Positions 1,153 through 40,359 of a DNA stretch of 64,000 nucleotides are shown here, one piece after another. How positions within the stretch are numbered: position 1 is the first letter of the stretch; each line of letters starts with the position of its first letter. The DNA lies in the NCBI RefSeq assembly GCF_003970925.1, contig NZ_RWJF01000001.1, forward strand, positions 2,846,501 through 2,910,500. Reading direction: 5' to 3'. The position numbers were made by a program, and so were the translations under genes. Source of the DNA: Sphingomonas ginkgonis (GTDB lineage: Bacteria; Pseudomonadota; Alphaproteobacteria; Sphingomonadales; Sphingomonadaceae). The notes beneath the pieces were generated by a model, which did not search any database, had not been told where the DNA came from, and was given only the letters and a program-made list of their open reading frames with translations.

Positions 1153-2075
1153 GCGGAAACAGACGCCTTCTTCGCGCGCACCCCAAGCAAGTGGCAAATG
1201 GCGTAGGCCAGCTCGGCGCGGTTGAGAGTGTAGAAGTGGAAGTGGCGGACGCCGCCGGCGTAAAGCTGGCCGCACAGCTCGGCCGCGATCGTCGCGGCGA
1301 TGAGCTGACGCGCGGCCGGAAGCTCGTCCAGACCGTCGAACATGGCATCCATCCAAGCCGGAATCTCGGCGCCGCACTGGCCTGCGAACTTGCGAGTCTG
1401 GGAGACGTTGCTGACCGGGAGAATGCCGGGGACGATCTCCACGTCGATGCGGCGGGCGGCAACCCGATCGCGGAAGCGGAAGAAGGCGTCGGCGGAAAAG
1501 AAGAACTGGCTGATCGCCCGATCAGCCCCCGCGTCGACCTTGCGCGCGAGATTGTCGAGGTCGCTGTCGGGACAGTTCGCCTGCGGGTGGGTCTCGGGAT
1601 AGCAGGCGACGCTGATCTCGAAGGGGGCCACCTGCTTGAGGCCAGCTACCAGCGCGGCAGCATCGGCATAGCCGTCCTCCCGTGCGGCATAGGTGGCGCC
1701 TTCCTCGGGCGGATCGCCGCGCAGCGCAACGATGTGGCGCACGCCGATATTCCAATAGTCGCGCGCGATGGCGTCGAGCTCGTCGCGACTGGCATTGACG
1801 CAGGTAAGATGCGCGGCGGCCGGAAGGGTCGTCTCGCGGGCGATCCGTTCGACGGTGGCGTGGGTCCGCTCGCGGGTCGAGCCGCCCGCACCGTAAGTCA
1901 CCGACACGAAGCGCGGCTGGAGCGGCTGCAAGGTCTCGATCGACTGCCAAAGCGTCTCGGCCATGCGGTCAGTCTTGGGCGGGAAGAATTCGAAGCTGAC
2001 GTCGATGTCTCCACTCGCACCCGCGAACAGCGGCGGACGTTCTTCGACGAGCCGATGGGCGAGCGCCGCGCTCAT
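1149..2075 (-). CDS. metF: 5,10-methylenetetrahydrofolate reductase
   Basis: MetF (308 aa) reduces 5,10-methylene-THF to 5-methyl-THF with FAD, supplying the methyl donor for the adjoining MetH. The N-terminus carries the SFEFFPPKT signature with the catalytic Glu, followed by FVSVTYGAGGSTRERT and, mid-protein, HIVALRGDPP; length matches the family. The ATG at 2075 overlaps the TGA of the upstream regulator (ATGA); an upstream alternative at 2117 would lie inside that gene. Position between sahR and metH in a coupled operon indicates control by the methionine/SAM cycle. Confidence 0.95.
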   Translation of the reverse strand: MSAALAHRLVEERPPLFAGASGDIDVSFEFFPPKTDRMAETLWQSIETLQPLQPRFVSVTYGAGGSTRERTHATVERIARETTLPAAAHLTCVNASRDELDAIARDYWNIGVRHIVALRGDPPEEGATYAAREDGYADAAALVAGLKQVAPFEISVACYPETHPQANCPDSDLDNLARKVDAGADRAISQFFFSADAFFRFRDRVAARRIDVEIVPGILPVSNVSQTRKFAGQCGAEIPAWMDAMFDGLDELPAARQLIAATIAAELCGQLYAGGVRHFHFYTLNRAELAYAICHLLGVRAKKASVSA

Positions 2076-3034
2076 GCCGCCACCCGCAGCCGCTTGGCCG
2101 GCTTGCATGCGCTCCACAGCATAACCGTCAACTCTCCACCTTCCAGCTTCCTCGTATCATCGCCGCGCAGCCCTGCGCTCTTGAGCCAGCCCCGGATCGC
2201 GTCGGTCGCAAAGCCGAGCCGGACATGGGCATCGCGAGACCGCAGATCCTCCCGCTCGTGCAGGGCGAAGTCGATGACCAGCAGCCTTCCACCGGGCGCC
2301 AGCACGCGTCCTGCCTCCGCAATCGCGGCGGCCGGGTTCTGCGCGTAATGGAGCACCTGGTGAAGAATCACGATGTCGGCCGCCGCGTCGGGCAACGGCA
2401 GCGCGTACATGTCCCCCTGCCGGAAGCTTGCGCCCGGGACGGCGGCCTGATCGAGTTTCGCACGCGCCAGACGCAGCATCTCCGACGAACGATCGATTCC
2501 GATCGCGCTGGTCGCGCGCGGGCCGAACAGCTCGATCATGCGCCCGGTGCCGGTGCCGATGTCGACGAGCCGACCGAGCGCCCCCTGCCCGAGCAGCTCG
2601 GCAATGGCCGCCTCGACCTCGGTCTCAGCCACATGGAGCGAGCGGATATCGTCCCAGTCGGACGCGCGGGCGGCGAAGAAGCGCTGGGCGGCCTCGGCAC
2701 GGTCCTGGCGCACGGCGGTCAGGCGGGCCCCGTCGGCAACGAAGGCAGAGCGGCTCGCCTCGTCGGACCAACCGTCGAGGAGCGCGAAGAGCTGGTCGGG
2801 TTCCGCCTCGGGCACGAGGTTGAGAAAAACCCAACTGCCTTCCTTGCGGCGCTCGACCAGCCCGGCGTCGCCAAGAATCTTGATGTGCCGCGACACGCGC
2901 GGCTGACTTTGCGCCAGCACCTGAGCCAGCTCACCGACCGACAGTTCCATCGCCCGAAGAAGCGCAACGATGCGCAGGCGGGTCGGGTCGGCCAGCGCCT
3001 GGAAGCGATCGGCAAGAGGAAGGTCAGTGGTCAC
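2072..3034 (-). CDS. sahR: ArsR-family repressor with methyltransferase-like sensor domain (SahR type)
   Basis: The 320-aa protein has an ArsR winged helix (residues about 1-90; recognition helix near QSQPRVSRHIKIL, 42-54) joined to a class I SAM-methyltransferase fold (motif I VDIGTGTGR at 157-165, then GIDRSSEML). This architecture is that of SahR, a repressor of SAM-cycle genes whose methyltransferase-like domain binds S-adenosylhomocysteine. It heads the metF-metH operon and lies directly behind a 20-bp palindrome, fitting autoregulation. The GTG at 3034 is chosen because the ArsR domain begins there and because an upstream extension to 3121 would read through the promoter. No Shine-Dalgarno is visible, so the mRNA may be leaderless. 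An active methyltransferase is less likely but not excluded. Confidence 0.88.
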   Translation of the reverse strand: MTTDLPLADRFQALADPTRLRIVALLRAMELSVGELAQVLAQSQPRVSRHIKILGDAGLVERRKEGSWVFLNLVPEAEPDQLFALLDGWSDEASRSAFVADGARLTAVRQDRAEAAQRFFAARASDWDDIRSLHVAETEVEAAIAELLGQGALGRLVDIGTGTGRMIELFGPRATSAIGIDRSSEMLRLARAKLDQAAVPGASFRQGDMYALPLPDAAADIVILHQVLHYAQNPAAAIAEAGRVLAPGGRLLVIDFALHEREDLRSRDAHVRLGFATDAIRGWLKSAGLRGDDTRKLEGGELTVMLWSACKPAKRLRVAA

Positions 3035-35605: not shown

Positions 35606-36298
35606 TCAGCGGCCGCCGCTGAGCTCGTCGACCTCGCCCATGATTTCCTGGAGCGCCGACTTGTCGGGATCGCTCTTGTGCTGGCGGCGAGATGGCAGCT
35701 TGCCGCCAGAGAGAAGCTGCTCGAGCGCTACGCGGCCGCGGGCGACCCGGCTCTTGATCGTGCCGACCGCGCAGCCGCATATCTCGGCGGCCTCTTCATA
35801 GGCAAAGCCGCCGGCCCCGACCAGGATCAGCGCCTCGCGCTGCGGCTGCGGCAGGTGCAGCAGAGCGCGCTGCATGTCGCCGAGTTCGACATGGCGATCC
35901 TGGCTGGCCGGGGCAGCGAGCAGCTTCGAGGCGGTCACATCGTCCCACTCGCCCTTGAAGCGCGCCCGGCGCATCTGGCTTAGGAATAGGTTGCGCAGGA
36001 TAATGAAGGTCCAGGCCCGCATGTTGGTGCCGGCCTGGAAGCGCTTGCGCGCCGCCCAAGCCTTCAGCAGCGTTTCCTGAACAAGGTCGTCGGCGAGGTC
36101 GCGGCTGCCCGACAGCGAGCGCCCGAAGGCGCGCAGGTGAGGGATGACCTGAGCCAGTTCGGCCTTGAACTCCGGGTCCGACAGCGGAACCGGTTCGGCC
36201 CGAGGAGCCGTGTCGTCATGATCGTCGCTGTCGCTCAACTTATCCCGCCCGGTCTCGGCGCAGCTCTCGTCACGAGCCGCCGCCCCACTATGGATCAT
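35606..36298 (-). CDS. ecfG: General stress response ECF sigma factor EcfG
   Basis: A 230-aa ECF sigma factor with region 2 (DLADDLVQETLLKAW, FQAGTNMRAWTFIILRNLFLSQMRR) and region 4 (LPQPQREALILVGAGGFAYEEAAEICGCAVGTIKSRVARGR), matching the ECF15/EcfG group. It directs transcription of stress genes when freed from NepR by phosphorylated PhyR. The ATG at 36298 has AGGTGG at good spacing and gives an N-terminal extension of about 40 residues compared with short EcfG proteins; TTG at codon 21 is an alternative. The C-terminal tail is Asp/Lys-rich. Confidence 0.93.
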   Translation of the reverse strand: MIHSGAAARDESCAETGRDKLSDSDDHDDTAPRAEPVPLSDPEFKAELAQVIPHLRAFGRSLSGSRDLADDLVQETLLKAWAARKRFQAGTNMRAWTFIILRNLFLSQMRRARFKGEWDDVTASKLLAAPASQDRHVELGDMQRALLHLPQPQREALILVGAGGFAYEEAAEICGCAVGTIKSRVARGRVALEQLLSGGKLPSRRQHKSDPDKSALQEIMGEVDELSGGR

Positions 36299-36323: not shown

Positions 36324-36461
36324 TTAGCGGGCGATGAACAATATCAGGACGAACGCAACCACCACGAGCACCAATCCACCGACCAGAACATAGCGTGTCA
36401 TGTGCGGCGTGGTGCCCGCGCGAGCCTCCGTGCCCGTCTTGTGCTGAGTGGGTTCAGCCAT
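36324..36461 (-). CDS. Small single-pass membrane protein (45 aa) upstream of ecfG
   Basis: A 45-aa frame, shorter than usual gene-calling limits: polar N-terminus (MAEPTQHKTGTEARAG) followed by one transmembrane helix (YVLVGGLVLVVVAFVLILF, about 24-42) and a short basic end. It lies between phyR and ecfG, 25 bp before ecfG, behind a perfect EcfG promoter, so it should be cotranscribed with ecfG and induced by stress. The Shine-Dalgarno (GGGGAT) is rather distant. Function unknown; a membrane-associated modulator is conceivable. Confidence 0.7.
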   Translation of the reverse strand: MAEPTQHKTGTEARAGTTPHMTRYVLVGGLVLVVVAFVLILFIAR

Positions 36462-36498
36462 GAAGAAAACATCCCCGAAACTGCTGTTTGCCTTGGCC

Positions 36499-36523
36499 AA
36501 CGCGCGGCCTCGGGGGCTGTTCC
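36499..36523 (-). promoter_or_regulatory. EcfG-type promoter for the 45-aa gene and ecfG
   Basis: GGAAC-N16-CGTT on the minus strand matches the EcfG consensus exactly. It lies between the phyR stop and the 45-aa gene (leader about 31 nt), giving positive autoregulation of ecfG. Confidence 0.85.
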
Positions 36524-36527
36524 ACCG

Positions 36528-37328
36528 TTAGGCAGCCGGAACGGTTGCGGCGTCGAAGAAGAGCGCCTGGGCGATCGCCGCCTTCACGGTCGAGCGCTGA
36601 AACGGCTTGGTGATGAGGAAGGTCGGCTCTGGCCGGGTGCCGGTCAGCAGCCGTTCCGGGAAGGCGGTGATGAAGATCACCGGGACCGAGAATTCGGCGA
36701 GGATATCGCGGACCGCGTCTATGCCCGAGCTGTCGTCGGCGAGCTGGATGTCGGCGAGCACCAGACCCGGCGGGTTGGCACGGGCCTGAGCCACGGCCTC
36801 GTCCCGAGTCACGGCGACACCGGTGACGTTGTGGCCGAGGTCACGGACGATCGTCTCAATGTCCATCGCGATGATCGGCTCGTCCTCGATGATGAGGACA
36901 TCCGCCAGGGTTTGCCGCTCAATTTCGCCAAGCGCTTCGGAAACGAGGTTCTCGACTTCCTGCGGCTGCGCACCGATCAGGTAGCCGGCCTCGCTCGACG
37001 AGAAACCCTCGAGCGCGGTGAGCAGCAGCGCCTGGCGCGACAGCGGAGTAATGCGCGACAGGCGCGCCCGTGCGATCCCTTCGGCGCCGTCGACGGTGGC
37101 CGCCGGCTCGCTCTGCTCCTCAATGTTGGCGGTTGACCAGATCGCGTGGAAGGTGCGGTAGAGGCCGAGCCGCGGCTCGACATCGCGCGGGAAATTGTCC
37201 GGAGCGGCGACGATCGCCTCGAGAGTGGCACGAACGAAGGCGTCTCCGTGGGCTTGGCTGCCCGTCAGGGCACGCGCATAACGGCGCAAGAATGGCAGAT
37301 GCGGCGCAAGTTCCTGGCCCAGCGACAT
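36528..37328 (-). CDS. phyR: General stress response anti-anti-sigma regulator PhyR
   Basis: PhyR (266 aa) joins an EcfG-like domain (1-110; sigma2-like LPFLRRYARALTGSQAHGDAFVRATLEA and sigma4-like region) to a C-terminal receiver (about 140-260). The receiver has the acidic pocket IIEDEP, phosphoacceptor Asp in LVLADIQL, and ITAFPER...TKPF typical of PhyR receivers. On phosphorylation the sigma-like domain sequesters NepR and frees EcfG. ATG at 37328 with ACAGGAG upstream; the longer frame adds residues without homology. Divergent from nepR. Confidence 0.96.
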   Translation of the reverse strand: MSLGQELAPHLPFLRRYARALTGSQAHGDAFVRATLEAIVAAPDNFPRDVEPRLGLYRTFHAIWSTANIEEQSEPAATVDGAEGIARARLSRITPLSRQALLLTALEGFSSSEAGYLIGAQPQEVENLVSEALGEIERQTLADVLIIEDEPIIAMDIETIVRDLGHNVTGVAVTRDEAVAQARANPPGLVLADIQLADDSSGIDAVRDILAEFSVPVIFITAFPERLLTGTRPEPTFLITKPFQRSTVKAAIAQALFFDAATVPAA

Positions 37329-37449
37329 AACGATAGTTGCTCCTGTGTAACTATTGATCTTCCTTTTGGGAGGCGGACGGGCTTTGTGCAACCCTGCAGG
37401 CCACGGCCCATTGTACCCCCGAGCGAAAGACCGCTTTTTGGCTGACGGG

Positions 37450-37474: not shown

Positions 37475-37586
37475 TCGTCGGCCAAGCAAGGCTGATTGAC
37501 GAGTCGGCTGAGCGACATCTAGGGGGCCAAATCGGTTGCTTAGTAGAGTCATGGCGGCGCGCTATTCACGTGTTCAAGACAAGCCG

Positions 37587-37796
37587 ATGGGGGGCGAGAG
37601 GTTGAGTGCCAACAAGAAGGCCAAGCCAGATCGTCCGGATGCCGCAAACGACGCGCCCATCTCCGAGGATACGAAACGAAAGAAGCGAGGTTCGACGCCG
37701 AACGACGTCGGCAAGGCGCTGCGTACTGTTTATGATGAGACGCTTCAGGAATCCGTGCCTAACGATTTTCTCGACCTGCTCGGCAAGCTCAGCTGA
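37587..37796 (+). CDS. nepR: Anti-sigma factor NepR
   Basis: A 69-aa protein with a disordered, Lys/Asp-rich N-terminus and the NepR core VGKALRTVYDETLQESVPNDFLDLLGKL, the two helices that bind EcfG or PhyR. It holds EcfG inactive in unstressed cells. The exact start is uncertain: ATG 37587 is used here; TTG 37602 (better match to short NepR proteins), ATG 37551 and TTG 37536 are in frame. It is followed after 24 bp by the sensor gene, probably one transcript. Confidence 0.92.
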   Translation: MGGERLSANKKAKPDRPDAANDAPISEDTKRKKRGSTPNDVGKALRTVYDETLQESVPNDFLDLLGKLS

Positions 37797-37820: not shown

Positions 37821-39371
37821 ATGAGCGGTTCGCTACGCGGACGCTTCGACCGTCTCTCGACGGGTTCGAAGCTGTTTCTTATTTTGACGCTGGCGCTGCT
37901 GCCGTTCGGGCTTGTTCTGGCATGGACCGCGGCGGGCAATGTCGCGCAAGCCAACCGCGCGCTGGAGCAGCGCGCCGAGGCGCAGACCGGGAGCGCGATC
38001 CAGTCGGTCGAAAGCGTCGTCGCGCGTAACGCCCTGGCACTCCGGATTGCCGCAAACGGCGCGCTTCGCCAAGCCAACTCCGATCCCTGCCAAACCACGG
38101 CACAGACCCTCGCGCTGACGCCAGCCGTCGGGCGGAACTTCACGCTGCGCGACACCAACGGGCTCCAGCTCTGTACGGCCGGGATCTTCCAGCCGCAGCG
38201 TGACAACCTGCTCGTCGCGCCGGGCGACATCCGCACCTGGGTAAGCAACGATGGTCACCAGCTATTCTTTAAAGTCGGAGTGATTAACGGAACCGCGACT
38301 GGGGCGCTGCCCGACACCGAGCTTCGCCAGGCCGCGCTGGCCAGCGGTGCGCATTTCCTGACCTTCGGGCTGAACGACAGCCTCCACGACATGGTGCTGA
38401 TCGACTCTCCGGTCGCATCGGGCGCCGAACTGCTGCCGACCATCACCCGGAGCCGGCGGATCGCGAACAACCAGCTGTCCGTGTCGAGCGTCACCCGGCT
38501 GCCGCGGATCGCCGAAGCGGATCGGGTGCTCATCTTCCTGCCGCTGCTGATGTGGGCGCTGGCGTCGCTGCTGAGCTGGTGGCTGGTGCAGCGGCTGCTG
38601 ATCCGACCGCTGCGCCATCTCCAGCGCTCGGTCGCCAACTTCCAGCCGGGCGATGGTCCCCTCGCGCTGCCCGACCGGCGCGGCCCGGCGAAGGAGATCG
38701 ACGAGCTCGGCCAAGCGTTCGAGCGAGCCGTCGAGCGCGTCGAACACAGCGAGCGCGAAATGGGCGTCGCGCTCGAGGGCCAGCGGCGGCTGGTCCGCGA
38801 GGTCCACCACCGGGTGAAGAACAATCTCCAGGTGGTCGCCAGCCTGCTCAACATCCATGGGCGCAACGCCGGGACGCCGGACGCCAAGGATGCCTACTCG
38901 GCGATCGGGCGCCGCGTGGACGCGTTGTCGGTGGTCCACCGCAATCACTATGCCGAGCTCGAGGAGAATCGCGGCATCGCGCTTCGCCCGCTAGTCACCG
39001 AGCTCGCCGCCGGTCTTCGCGGCAGTGCGCCGGACAGCGCGCGCGCCATCTCCATCCAGCTTGACGTCGAGAGCCTCAACACGACCCAGGATGCGGCCGT
39101 GGCGGCGGCGTTCCTGATCACCGAAATCGTCGAGTTCGCCATGCTCCACGAGCCGGAGGAGCCGATCGAGGTCGTGCTCCGCCGCACTGGTGACCTCACC
39201 GCTGCGCTCAGCCTGACCAGCCCGGTACTGGTGCCCGGGCAGGAGCAGGTGAACCCGGAGCGCAAGCAGTTCGAGCGGATCGTCGATGGTCTCGCGCGCC
39301 AGCTCCGCTCCCCGCTCGAGCGCAAACTGGGGCGCTACAGTGTCGACCTGCCGGTGTTTCCGGCATCCTGA
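37821..39371 (+). CDS. phyP: PhyP-like HisKA_2 sensor protein with degenerate ATPase domain
   Basis: The 516-aa membrane protein has TM1 (about 17-37), an extracytoplasmic domain with two Cys (PCQTT, LQLCTAG), TM2 (about 234-257), a linker, and a HisKA_2 dimerisation domain with REVHHRVKNNLQVVASLL (His330). The ATPase part is eroded: the N-box reads TEIVEFAMLHEP instead of NELVTNALKHA, no DNGxG is present, and the end (FERIVDGLARQLRSPL) lacks GxGLGL. Sphingomonas PhyP, encoded beside nepR, is a negative regulator of PhyR. A phosphatase role is inferred from position and the lost ATP motifs. Confidence 0.85.
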   Translation: MSGSLRGRFDRLSTGSKLFLILTLALLPFGLVLAWTAAGNVAQANRALEQRAEAQTGSAIQSVESVVARNALALRIAANGALRQANSDPCQTTAQTLALTPAVGRNFTLRDTNGLQLCTAGIFQPQRDNLLVAPGDIRTWVSNDGHQLFFKVGVINGTATGALPDTELRQAALASGAHFLTFGLNDSLHDMVLIDSPVASGAELLPTITRSRRIANNQLSVSSVTRLPRIAEADRVLIFLPLLMWALASLLSWWLVQRLLIRPLRHLQRSVANFQPGDGPLALPDRRGPAKEIDELGQAFERAVERVEHSEREMGVALEGQRRLVREVHHRVKNNLQVVASLLNIHGRNAGTPDAKDAYSAIGRRVDALSVVHRNHYAELEENRGIALRPLVTELAAGLRGSAPDSARAISIQLDVESLNTTQDAAVAAAFLITEIVEFAMLHEPEEPIEVVLRRTGDLTAALSLTSPVLVPGQEQVNPERKQFERIVDGLARQLRSPLERKLGRYSVDLPVFPAS

Positions 39372-39400
39372 ATAATTTCGTAAATTTTCTCGAGGACAGC

Positions 39401-39425
39401 GGAACCCCGGACGGCCAACACCGTT
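39401..39425 (+). promoter_or_regulatory. Perfect EcfG promoter without a downstream ORF
   Basis: GGAAC (39401-39405), 16 bp, CGTT (39422-39425). It starts 30 bp after the phyP stop and points into an intergenic region with no plausible coding frame, towards the 3' end of the oppositely oriented tatC. Confidence 0.85.
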
Positions 39426-39431
39426 TTACTC

Positions 39432-39530
39432 TTCGGATAGTGACCTTTTGCCCCCCCGCTCTCGCTATCCGCTTACATGGGCCCGGAAACGTCAACCCTC
39501 CCCCCCCCGGTGACGTTTTCGGGCCCAAAT
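39432..39530 (+). ncRNA. Candidate stress-induced sRNA with C-rich hairpin loops (GsrN-like)
   Basis: Starting at the expected start site of the EcfG promoter, the sequence folds into stem 1, CGGATAG/CTATCCG (39434-39440 with 39465-39471), whose loop holds seven C (39451-39457). Stem 2 has 16-bp arms (39479-39494 with 39511-39526, one G-T pair) and nine C in its 16-nt loop (39500-39508). A further small hairpin, GCCCGA/TCGGGC, lies at 39560-39577. Exposed C-rich loops are used by alphaproteobacterial sRNAs such as Caulobacter GsrN to pair with G-rich ribosome binding sites. The 3' end is uncertain because no T tract follows. About 100 nt long. Confidence 0.65.
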
Positions 39531-39585
39531 TCTATCCGGGGTTCATTGGCATCAGAGGCGCCCGAACACTGTCGGGCTCCAACGG

Positions 39586-40359
39586 CTAAGTGGCGCTACC
39601 CTGTCCTTCGCCGGCCTTTTTCCGCGCGGCTCGCCAGTGGGTCAGTCGGATCGCCAGAATGGCGAACTCGTAAAGGCCGTAGAGCGGCACCAGCAGCAGC
39701 AGCATTGAGACCACGTCGGGCGGGGTCAGCACGGCGGCGGCGGCTCCCGCGATGACGACGGCATAGCGCCGGCTCTTCTGCAGCTGCTCGACGGTGATGA
39801 TCCCGGCACGCTCAAGGATCATCAGCAGCACGGGCGTCAGGAACGCCGCGCCGAACCCGAACAGGAAGCGGGTGACGAAGTTGAGGTAATTGCCGACGCC
39901 CGGCAGCGCCTCCTGCTGGACCCCACCGATGTTGCCGCTGTAGCCAAGCAGGAACTTCAGCGCCCACGGCATCGCGACGAAATAGGCGAAGCTCGCTCCG
40001 GCAATGAAGAAGAAGGGCGTCATGAGGAGGAAGGGCAAAAAGGCCCGCTTCTCCTTGGCGTAGAGGCCGGGCGCGACGAACCGCCAAAGCTGGGTCGAGA
40101 TGACCGGGAAGCTCAGCATCAGCGCCGCCCAGGCCGCCACCTTCACCTCCACGAAGAAGGCCTCGAAGATGTCGGTGTAGATGAGCTTGCCCTGCCCCGC
40201 GCGGAGCAGCGGCTGGACCAGCACCGCGAAGATCGGCTTGGCGAAATACATGCAAACGAAGAAGGTCAGCGTCAGCGCCGCCAAACAGATGAACAGGCGG
40301 CGGCGGAGCTCGACCAGATGCTCGAATAGCGGCTGCTTGCTGTCGTCGATGTCCTTCAT
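39586..40359 (-). CDS. tatC: Twin-arginine translocase subunit TatC
   Basis: TatC (257 aa) is the six-helix Tat receptor that binds twin-arginine signals with TatB. It starts QPLFEHLVELRRRLFICL, the conserved HLxELRxR motif, and has the expected six transmembrane segments. The ATG overlaps the tatB stop (ATGA). At least one substrate, the DUF1501 protein, is encoded in this window. Confidence 0.97.
   Translation of the reverse strand: MKDIDDSKQPLFEHLVELRRRLFICLAALTLTFFVCMYFAKPIFAVLVQPLLRAGQGKLIYTDIFEAFFVEVKVAAWAALMLSFPVISTQLWRFVAPGLYAKEKRAFLPFLLMTPFFFIAGASFAYFVAMPWALKFLLGYSGNIGGVQQEALPGVGNYLNFVTRFLFGFGAAFLTPVLLMILERAGIITVEQLQKSRRYAVVIAGAAAAVLTPPDVVSMLLLLVPLYGLYEFAILAIRLTHWRAARKKAGEGQGSAT

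Follow-up and report, generated by a model that had tools for sequence, protein, structure and literature searches.

The general stress response is well studied in Sphingomonas. In Sphingomonas ginkgonis, an exact EcfG-type promoter lies beside the genes of this response and is followed by tatC, encoded on the opposite strand, with no known plus-strand gene in between the promoter's hairpin-rich downstream region and tatC. The question that this locus raises is what such a promoter transcribes. We analyzed a stretch of 64,000 nucleotides of the genome, hereafter the window, for which the original prediction had proposed an unannotated EcfG-driven transcript with C-rich hairpin loops. Judged from sequence comparison and predicted structure, we give a probability of roughly 0.78 to the reading that the element is a gene for an EcfG-dependent, trans-acting sRNA of about 100 nt which belongs to the general stress response and works in a GsrN-like manner.

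Table 1. Features of the RNA locus and of the neighboring genes (positions in the window).
Feature	Position	Strand	Remarks
EcfG-type promoter GGAAC-N16-CGTT	39401..39425	+	GGAAC 39401-39405, 16-nt spacer, CGTT 39422-39425
Discriminator, 9 nt	39426..39434	+	predicted transcription start near its end
Hairpin 1	39435..39470	+	9-bp stem (39435-39443 with 39462-39470, one U-G); 18-nt loop CCUUUUGC7GCUC (39444-39461, C7 at 39451-39457)
Hairpin 2	39479..39526	+	16-bp stem (39479-39494 with 39511-39526, one G-U); 16-nt loop ACCCUC9GG (39495-39510, C9 at 39500-39508), anti-Shine-Dalgarno-like
U-rich tail, weak	39527..39541	+	likely 3' end of the RNA
phyP-type HisKA_2/HWE kinase gene	37821..39371	+	PF07568 4.3e-16; upstream of the RNA
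nepR (anti-sigma factor)	37536..37796	+	PF18557 2.7e-8
phyR	36528..37391	-	PF22029, PF22233, PF00072; NF006623 above cut-off
ecfG-type sigma factor gene	35606..36298	-	PF04542, PF08281
tatC	39586..40359	-	PF00902 1.1e-68; converges on the RNA gene

The exact promoter, the stem with a C7-containing loop and the 16-bp stem with a C9-containing loop were all located as predicted, and the neighborhood named with them, phyP-nepR-phyR-ecfG, is borne out by Pfam matches for each gene (Table 1). In the 64-kb window, two exact copies of the promoter pattern were counted compared to 0.45 expected, and 11 of 100 shuffles reach two, so that the promoter match by itself is weak. The second copy, at 36499-36523 on the minus strand, precedes a 58-aa ORF (36324-36500, no Pfam match) and ecfG, as would be expected for an autoregulated sigma factor.

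The predicted fold is more distinctive. The region 39430-39545 reaches a minimum free energy of -48.5 kcal/mol (z = -5.24), and equal stability was found in none of 200 shuffles; the opposite strand of 39425-39545 gave z = -1.64, with equal stability in 10 of 200 shuffles. Both the start site at about 39432 and the hairpin start at 39435 are predictions. Hairpin 2 probably doubles as the 3' end structure of the RNA. The 15 nt past it average 37% T (68 loci), and a terminator scan called no intrinsic terminator at the RNA gene on either strand. Runs of seven or more G on either strand are rare in this genome (42 separate sites, which account for 67 overlapping 7-mer matches), and two of these sites are the C loops of the RNA, which is present as a single copy (one covariance-model match). 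A search of Rfam 15 at E<=1 returned no match on the RNA, neither for the stretch searched in the window nor for six related loci.

Conservation analysis within the genus was based on blastn with 39395-39560 as the query against 37 genus genomes and 24 genomes from other genera. The element is present in 35 of the 37, own genome included, and the two misses are genomes of 77–79% completeness; for the other genera, nothing beyond matches of some 20 nt was obtained, and these came from three genomes. We compared 36 genus loci, i.e., the 37 strong matches minus a fragment at a contig end (G030:C10). All 36 carry GGAAC-N16/17-CGTT (spacer of 16 nt in 15 loci and of 17 nt in 21), exactly 9 nt ahead of hairpin 1. 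The promoter spacer drifts, with most columns at about 0.1–0.9 bits and a few higher, while the RNA is near-invariant. Two-sided changes affect 7 of the 16 pairs of hairpin 2 and none of the 9 pairs of hairpin 1 (7/25 in total), and the covariation score of this alignment was reached by none of 500 shuffles. Given this conservation, the whole feature is, by the measure of its sequence, far beyond chance.

Support for the two hairpins becomes stronger at the level of the family. A model-fitted alignment held 68 matches at E<=1e-7 out of 71 sources (L089-L091 fell out), and a MAFFT alignment held 57 of the same 68 sequences. Two-sided changes were seen in 23 of 25 pairs in the former and in 22 of 25 in the latter, with 97.2% and 95.2% of cells pairing, respectively; none of 500 shuffles scored as high in covariation in either alignment, and slid controls dropped to 29–46% paired. 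In hairpin 1, 99.8–100% of pairs are kept and 7 of 9 show two-sided changes; in hairpin 2 such changes affect 15–16 of the 16 pairs. The stems vary and the loops stay C-rich: in L233-L240 the stem of hairpin 1 has a wholly different sequence, and its loop nonetheless carries C6-C8. Among the 68 sequences, the longest C run in the hairpin 1 loop is 7 nt in 43, 6 nt in 22 and of other length in 3, and in the hairpin 2 loop it ranges from 5 to 13 nt, with a C..UCCC motif in 51. The predicted structure exposes a C-rich loop near the 5' end of the RNA, as in RNAs of the GsrN-like kind.

These data also bear on coding potential. The claim that no ORF precedes tatC stood for known genes on the plus strand and failed for the ORF list, which contains a mechanical 92-aa ORF at 39477-39755 (+) that starts inside hairpin 2 and overlaps tatC in antisense. 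Its presence in that list is what speaks for a small protein gene, a reading to which we give virtually no credence: the stem changes are compensatory, and the frame is not kept because relatives differ by single nucleotides in the length of the hairpin 2 C run.

How widely does the element occur? A covariance model of the genus matched in 101 of 396 genomes of the order Sphingomonadales at E<=0.01 (18 of 84 genera), and a broader model in 129 of 396 at the same threshold (26 of 84 genera), every match lying within the same family. At 44 bits or more, the broader model retained 113 of 396 genomes. A class-wide search of 289 genomes gave strong scores in two members of the family alone, and the five matches outside the family were weak (E 9.5e-4 to 0.042). 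We also scanned GTDB genomes for a pattern of the RNA core without the promoter, which matched at least 120 stretches; of the 80 loci listed among the matches, 75 carry the name of a sphingomonad in their title, and the remaining 5 belong to MAGs with the title Alphaproteobacteria, Proteobacteria or uncultured bacterium. The exact promoter precedes 62 of these 80 listed loci, compared to 0.003 expected per slot, and by eye the other 18 keep GGAAC and have a changed -10 element. In the set of 68 model matches, the promoter is exact in 51, the -10 element reads xGTT in 65 and GGAAC is present in 67. One of the checks proposed with the prediction, whether relatives keep the promoter and the loops, thus came out positive.

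A few further C-loop RNAs were noted in these searches. L091 (G313) holds a second, diverged RNA with two C-loop hairpins behind GGAAC-N16-TGTT, away from phyP and tatC. Another C-rich-loop hairpin was seen in L089, L090, L243, L245, and L249 between an ORF ending in ..LDLVGKI and an ORF starting with ML(G/D)A.., which we take to be, probably, ahpC and ahpF. In L244, CRISPR-DR4 repeats (1785-2178, minus strand) lie close to the RNA-bearing stretch.

The RNA co-occurs with PhyR. At a threshold of E<=1e-40, PhyR matches were found in 289 of the 396 order genomes, among them 113 of the 113 RNA-bearing ones, and none of the 107 genomes without a PhyR match carries the RNA (Fisher p 2.7e-19, a value inflated by shared ancestry). 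Sixteen of the 129 matching genomes, those with weaker matches, were left outside the 113 in this comparison. The covariance search across Sphingomonadales that had been suggested with the prediction returned the RNA exclusively in genomes with PhyR at 44 bits or more. At this threshold, 176 of the 289 PhyR-bearing genomes have no RNA match, and in genus g27 one genome (G151) lacks both RNA and PhyR. The 113 RNA-bearing genomes are a lower bound, because two further loci came to light. Among 18 RNA-negative genomes of Erythrobacter-type genera, the tatC locus gave one more RNA (L255, 41.5 bits), and L285, at the phyR locus of G157, is a look-alike in which two hairpins with C5 and CCCUCCUCACCCCCC loops and unrelated stems stand behind an exact EcfG promoter. 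At least two PhyR-bearing genomes without a match (G110 and G157) hold an RNA built in the same way that escaped the model or received a low score from it.

The position of the RNA is also conserved. In 40 loci around genus-model matches, it lies between phyP and tatC in 26, next to tatC only in 9, next to phyP only in 1 and next to neither in 4; in the genus loci, phyP was matched in 36 of 36 and tatC in 35 of 36. As in the window, the RNA is thus found near the ecfG-nepR-phyR locus, with three sphingomonad genomes (L238-L240) as exceptions, where it adjoins neither phyP nor tatC. An element between convergent genes, with a hairpin as strong as hairpin 2, could be no more than a 3'-end structure or bidirectional terminator between phyP and tatC without any regulatory role. 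We consider this very improbable, as it leaves unexplained the constant 9-nt distance from the promoter to hairpin 1 and the invariant C-rich loops, the terminator scan made no call on either strand here, and the RNA is kept where the neighboring phyP or tatC is absent.

Outside the genus of the window, the RNA has a frequent downstream neighbor. By a strict rule, the RNA is followed by a small entericidin-like lipoprotein ORF in 92 of 123 loci, a set from which 15 weak or off-locus ones had been dropped, in which some contigs are counted twice (e.g., L079/L113, L096/L146, L086/L129) and which includes some named members of the window's genus; the rule misses some loci, e.g., L086 and L233, that a looser reading finds. 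The ORF matches NCBIfam entericidin A at 4.5e-6, below the cut-off of that model. The RNA might therefore be read as the cis-regulatory 5' leader of this gene, which the window's genus would have lost. This frequent linkage, the 14 of 92 loci that have no EcfG-like promoter in between, and an ORF start within about 25 nt of hairpin 2 in several loci (e.g., L234, L235, L237, and L072), and in some g27 loci, are in line with such a leader. On the other hand, the gene follows the RNA in 0 of 35 loci of the window's genus although RNA and promoter are near-invariant there, a GGAAC element with a loose -10 separates RNA and gene in 78 of the 92 loci (exact in 1), and in L238-L240 the RNA is located elsewhere. 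PF08085, a model of uncertain sensitivity toward genes of this family, had no match in the own genome either. The persistence of the RNA in the window's genus, where the gene does not follow, means that it is more than a leader of that gene, which favors a trans-acting RNA and makes the leader reading improbable as a general account; a leader role is possible in those other relatives where the RNA sits directly ahead of the entericidin-like gene with no promoter in between.

For the trans-acting sRNA, we propose the following course. PhyR would free EcfG from NepR, EcfG would start transcription just ahead of 39435, and the RNA would fold into two hairpins displaying C7 and C8-C11 loops, the second of which resembles an anti-Shine-Dalgarno sequence. 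By analogy with GsrN, the C loops may base-pair with target mRNAs, at G-rich leaders or ribosome-binding sites, and this pairing may alter translation or stability of the targets.

The search for G-rich leaders, also suggested with the prediction, gave a divided answer: a G-run is common at nepR, and katG leaders have no conserved G-tract and duplex energies are not selective. katG leaders showed no conserved G-tract, with G5 or longer in 2 of the 30 regions listed and neither of them a conserved leader element, and for want of such a tract katG was ruled out as a GsrN-type target; several starts were misread in this check, that of the own-genome katG included. In the window, GGGGGG precedes the TTG start of nepR. 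A ribosome-binding site of the form AGGGG(GG) recurs at this gene, in many cases ahead of TTG; of 78 loci, 51 have G5 or longer, 16 have G6 and 4 have C5. The first choice of 150-nt regions had cut off start codons (19 of 79 with G5), and the region was moved after this first look. Such a G-run ribosome-binding site is seen at nepR in most Sphingomonas/Sphingomicrobium-type loci. In control regions of 150 nt, G5 occurred in 3 of 58 for phyP, 4 of 95 for tatC, 3 of 85 for tatB, 9 of 82 for tatA and 5 of 74 for scpB. The 150-nt regions of phyR contain G5 or longer in 35 of 78, about 40–55 nt upstream of phyR and far upstream of its AGGAG site. Among 18 loci (nepR not found in 13, L271 unreadable), the RNA-bearing L244, L272, and L273 have no G-run at the nepR start.

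Mean duplex energies with the RNA were -19.6 kcal/mol for nepR, -19.8 for phyR and -18.7 for scpB, and are thus not selective for nepR; in the window itself, the leaders of phyR, ecfG, and nepR rank 6, 11, and 12 of 59, with unreliable starts. The 40 genomic G7 sites examined outside the RNA include a few near possible starts and none with comparative support. Two sites of the own genome were noted on the side: L300 has a G12 stretch with GAGCGGGGGGG, which is complementary to the hairpin 1 loop over 11 nt, and in L356 a G7 run lies 7 nt upstream of an ATG.

From its leader sequence, nepR is a bold candidate target, which the RNA could reach through the G-run ribosome-binding site. If the C loops covered this site, less NepR would be made and EcfG would stay free, closing a positive feedback; we regard this loop as doubtful, and if it exists, a partner-switch sigma system may here carry a latch made of RNA. 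The similar duplex energies point to a different option. The RNA could act as a broad dampener or sponge, its C loops sequestering many Shine-Dalgarno sequences or titrating another G-rich RNA. High duplex energies for several unrelated genes, e.g., scpB, are consistent with this, as is the resemblance of the C..UCCC loops to the CCUCCUCCC anti-Shine-Dalgarno loops of SmelA075/SmelA099 in the available text of PMC3927594. We hold a sponge to be possible and rather unlikely: in most of the family, the hairpin 1 loop and its 3' arm (GCCCCCCCGCUCUCGC) are conserved far past what a generic C loop needs.

Stress control and C-rich, anti-Shine-Dalgarno-like loops are combined in the CcsR sRNAs of Rhodobacter sphaeroides, which are under sigma factors other than EcfG. 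The Zymomonas Zms sRNAs were considered as a known relative, and no link could be made from the accessible part of the sources on them. Our literature search, which left subscription journals mostly outside its scope, found no report of the sphingomonad RNA. By its sequence features, it appears to be a real, conserved EcfG-promoter RNA of the GsrN-like kind that is unreported in the literature searched.

In the Rhizobiales, the accessible text of PMC3927594 describes RFMSmelA075/SmelA099, repeated hairpins whose stems drift and whose loops keep CCUCCUCCC-type motifs. The sphingomonad RNA is similar in that its hairpin stems vary and anti-Shine-Dalgarno-type loops are kept. In contrast to SmelA075/SmelA099, for which this text gives three to four hairpins and more than one copy per genome, it has two hairpins, a single copy in the own genome, an EcfG promoter and synteny with the general stress response locus.

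The closest analogy is that drawn in the prediction, and what could be seen of PMC5869019 backs it. GsrN of Caulobacter crescentus is described there as a sigma-T/EcfG-dependent sRNA whose 5' C-rich loop, its most conserved part, pairs with the katG 5' leader, and which is encoded near the ecfG-nepR-phyR locus in most Caulobacteraceae. The sphingomonad RNA shares with it, as far as that text goes, the EcfG-type promoter, the exposed C-rich loop, the proximity to the stress response locus and the conservation of the loop; it differs in having two C-loop hairpins and in the katG leaders examined here, which have no conserved G-tract, and the two RNAs are likened by described features, not by sequence. 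EcfG-dependent sRNA control has been described in Caulobacter and proposed for Rhizobiaceae, and Erythrobacter litoralis, a sphingomonad, was named as having no apparent gsrN-like gene (PMC5869019, as far as available). The RNA would thus extend this control layer to a large environmental family with one member earlier named as having none, and for direct tests it supplies the exact locus together with the promoter, the loops and an alignment across the family, as well as a testable idea of feedback on an anti-sigma factor.
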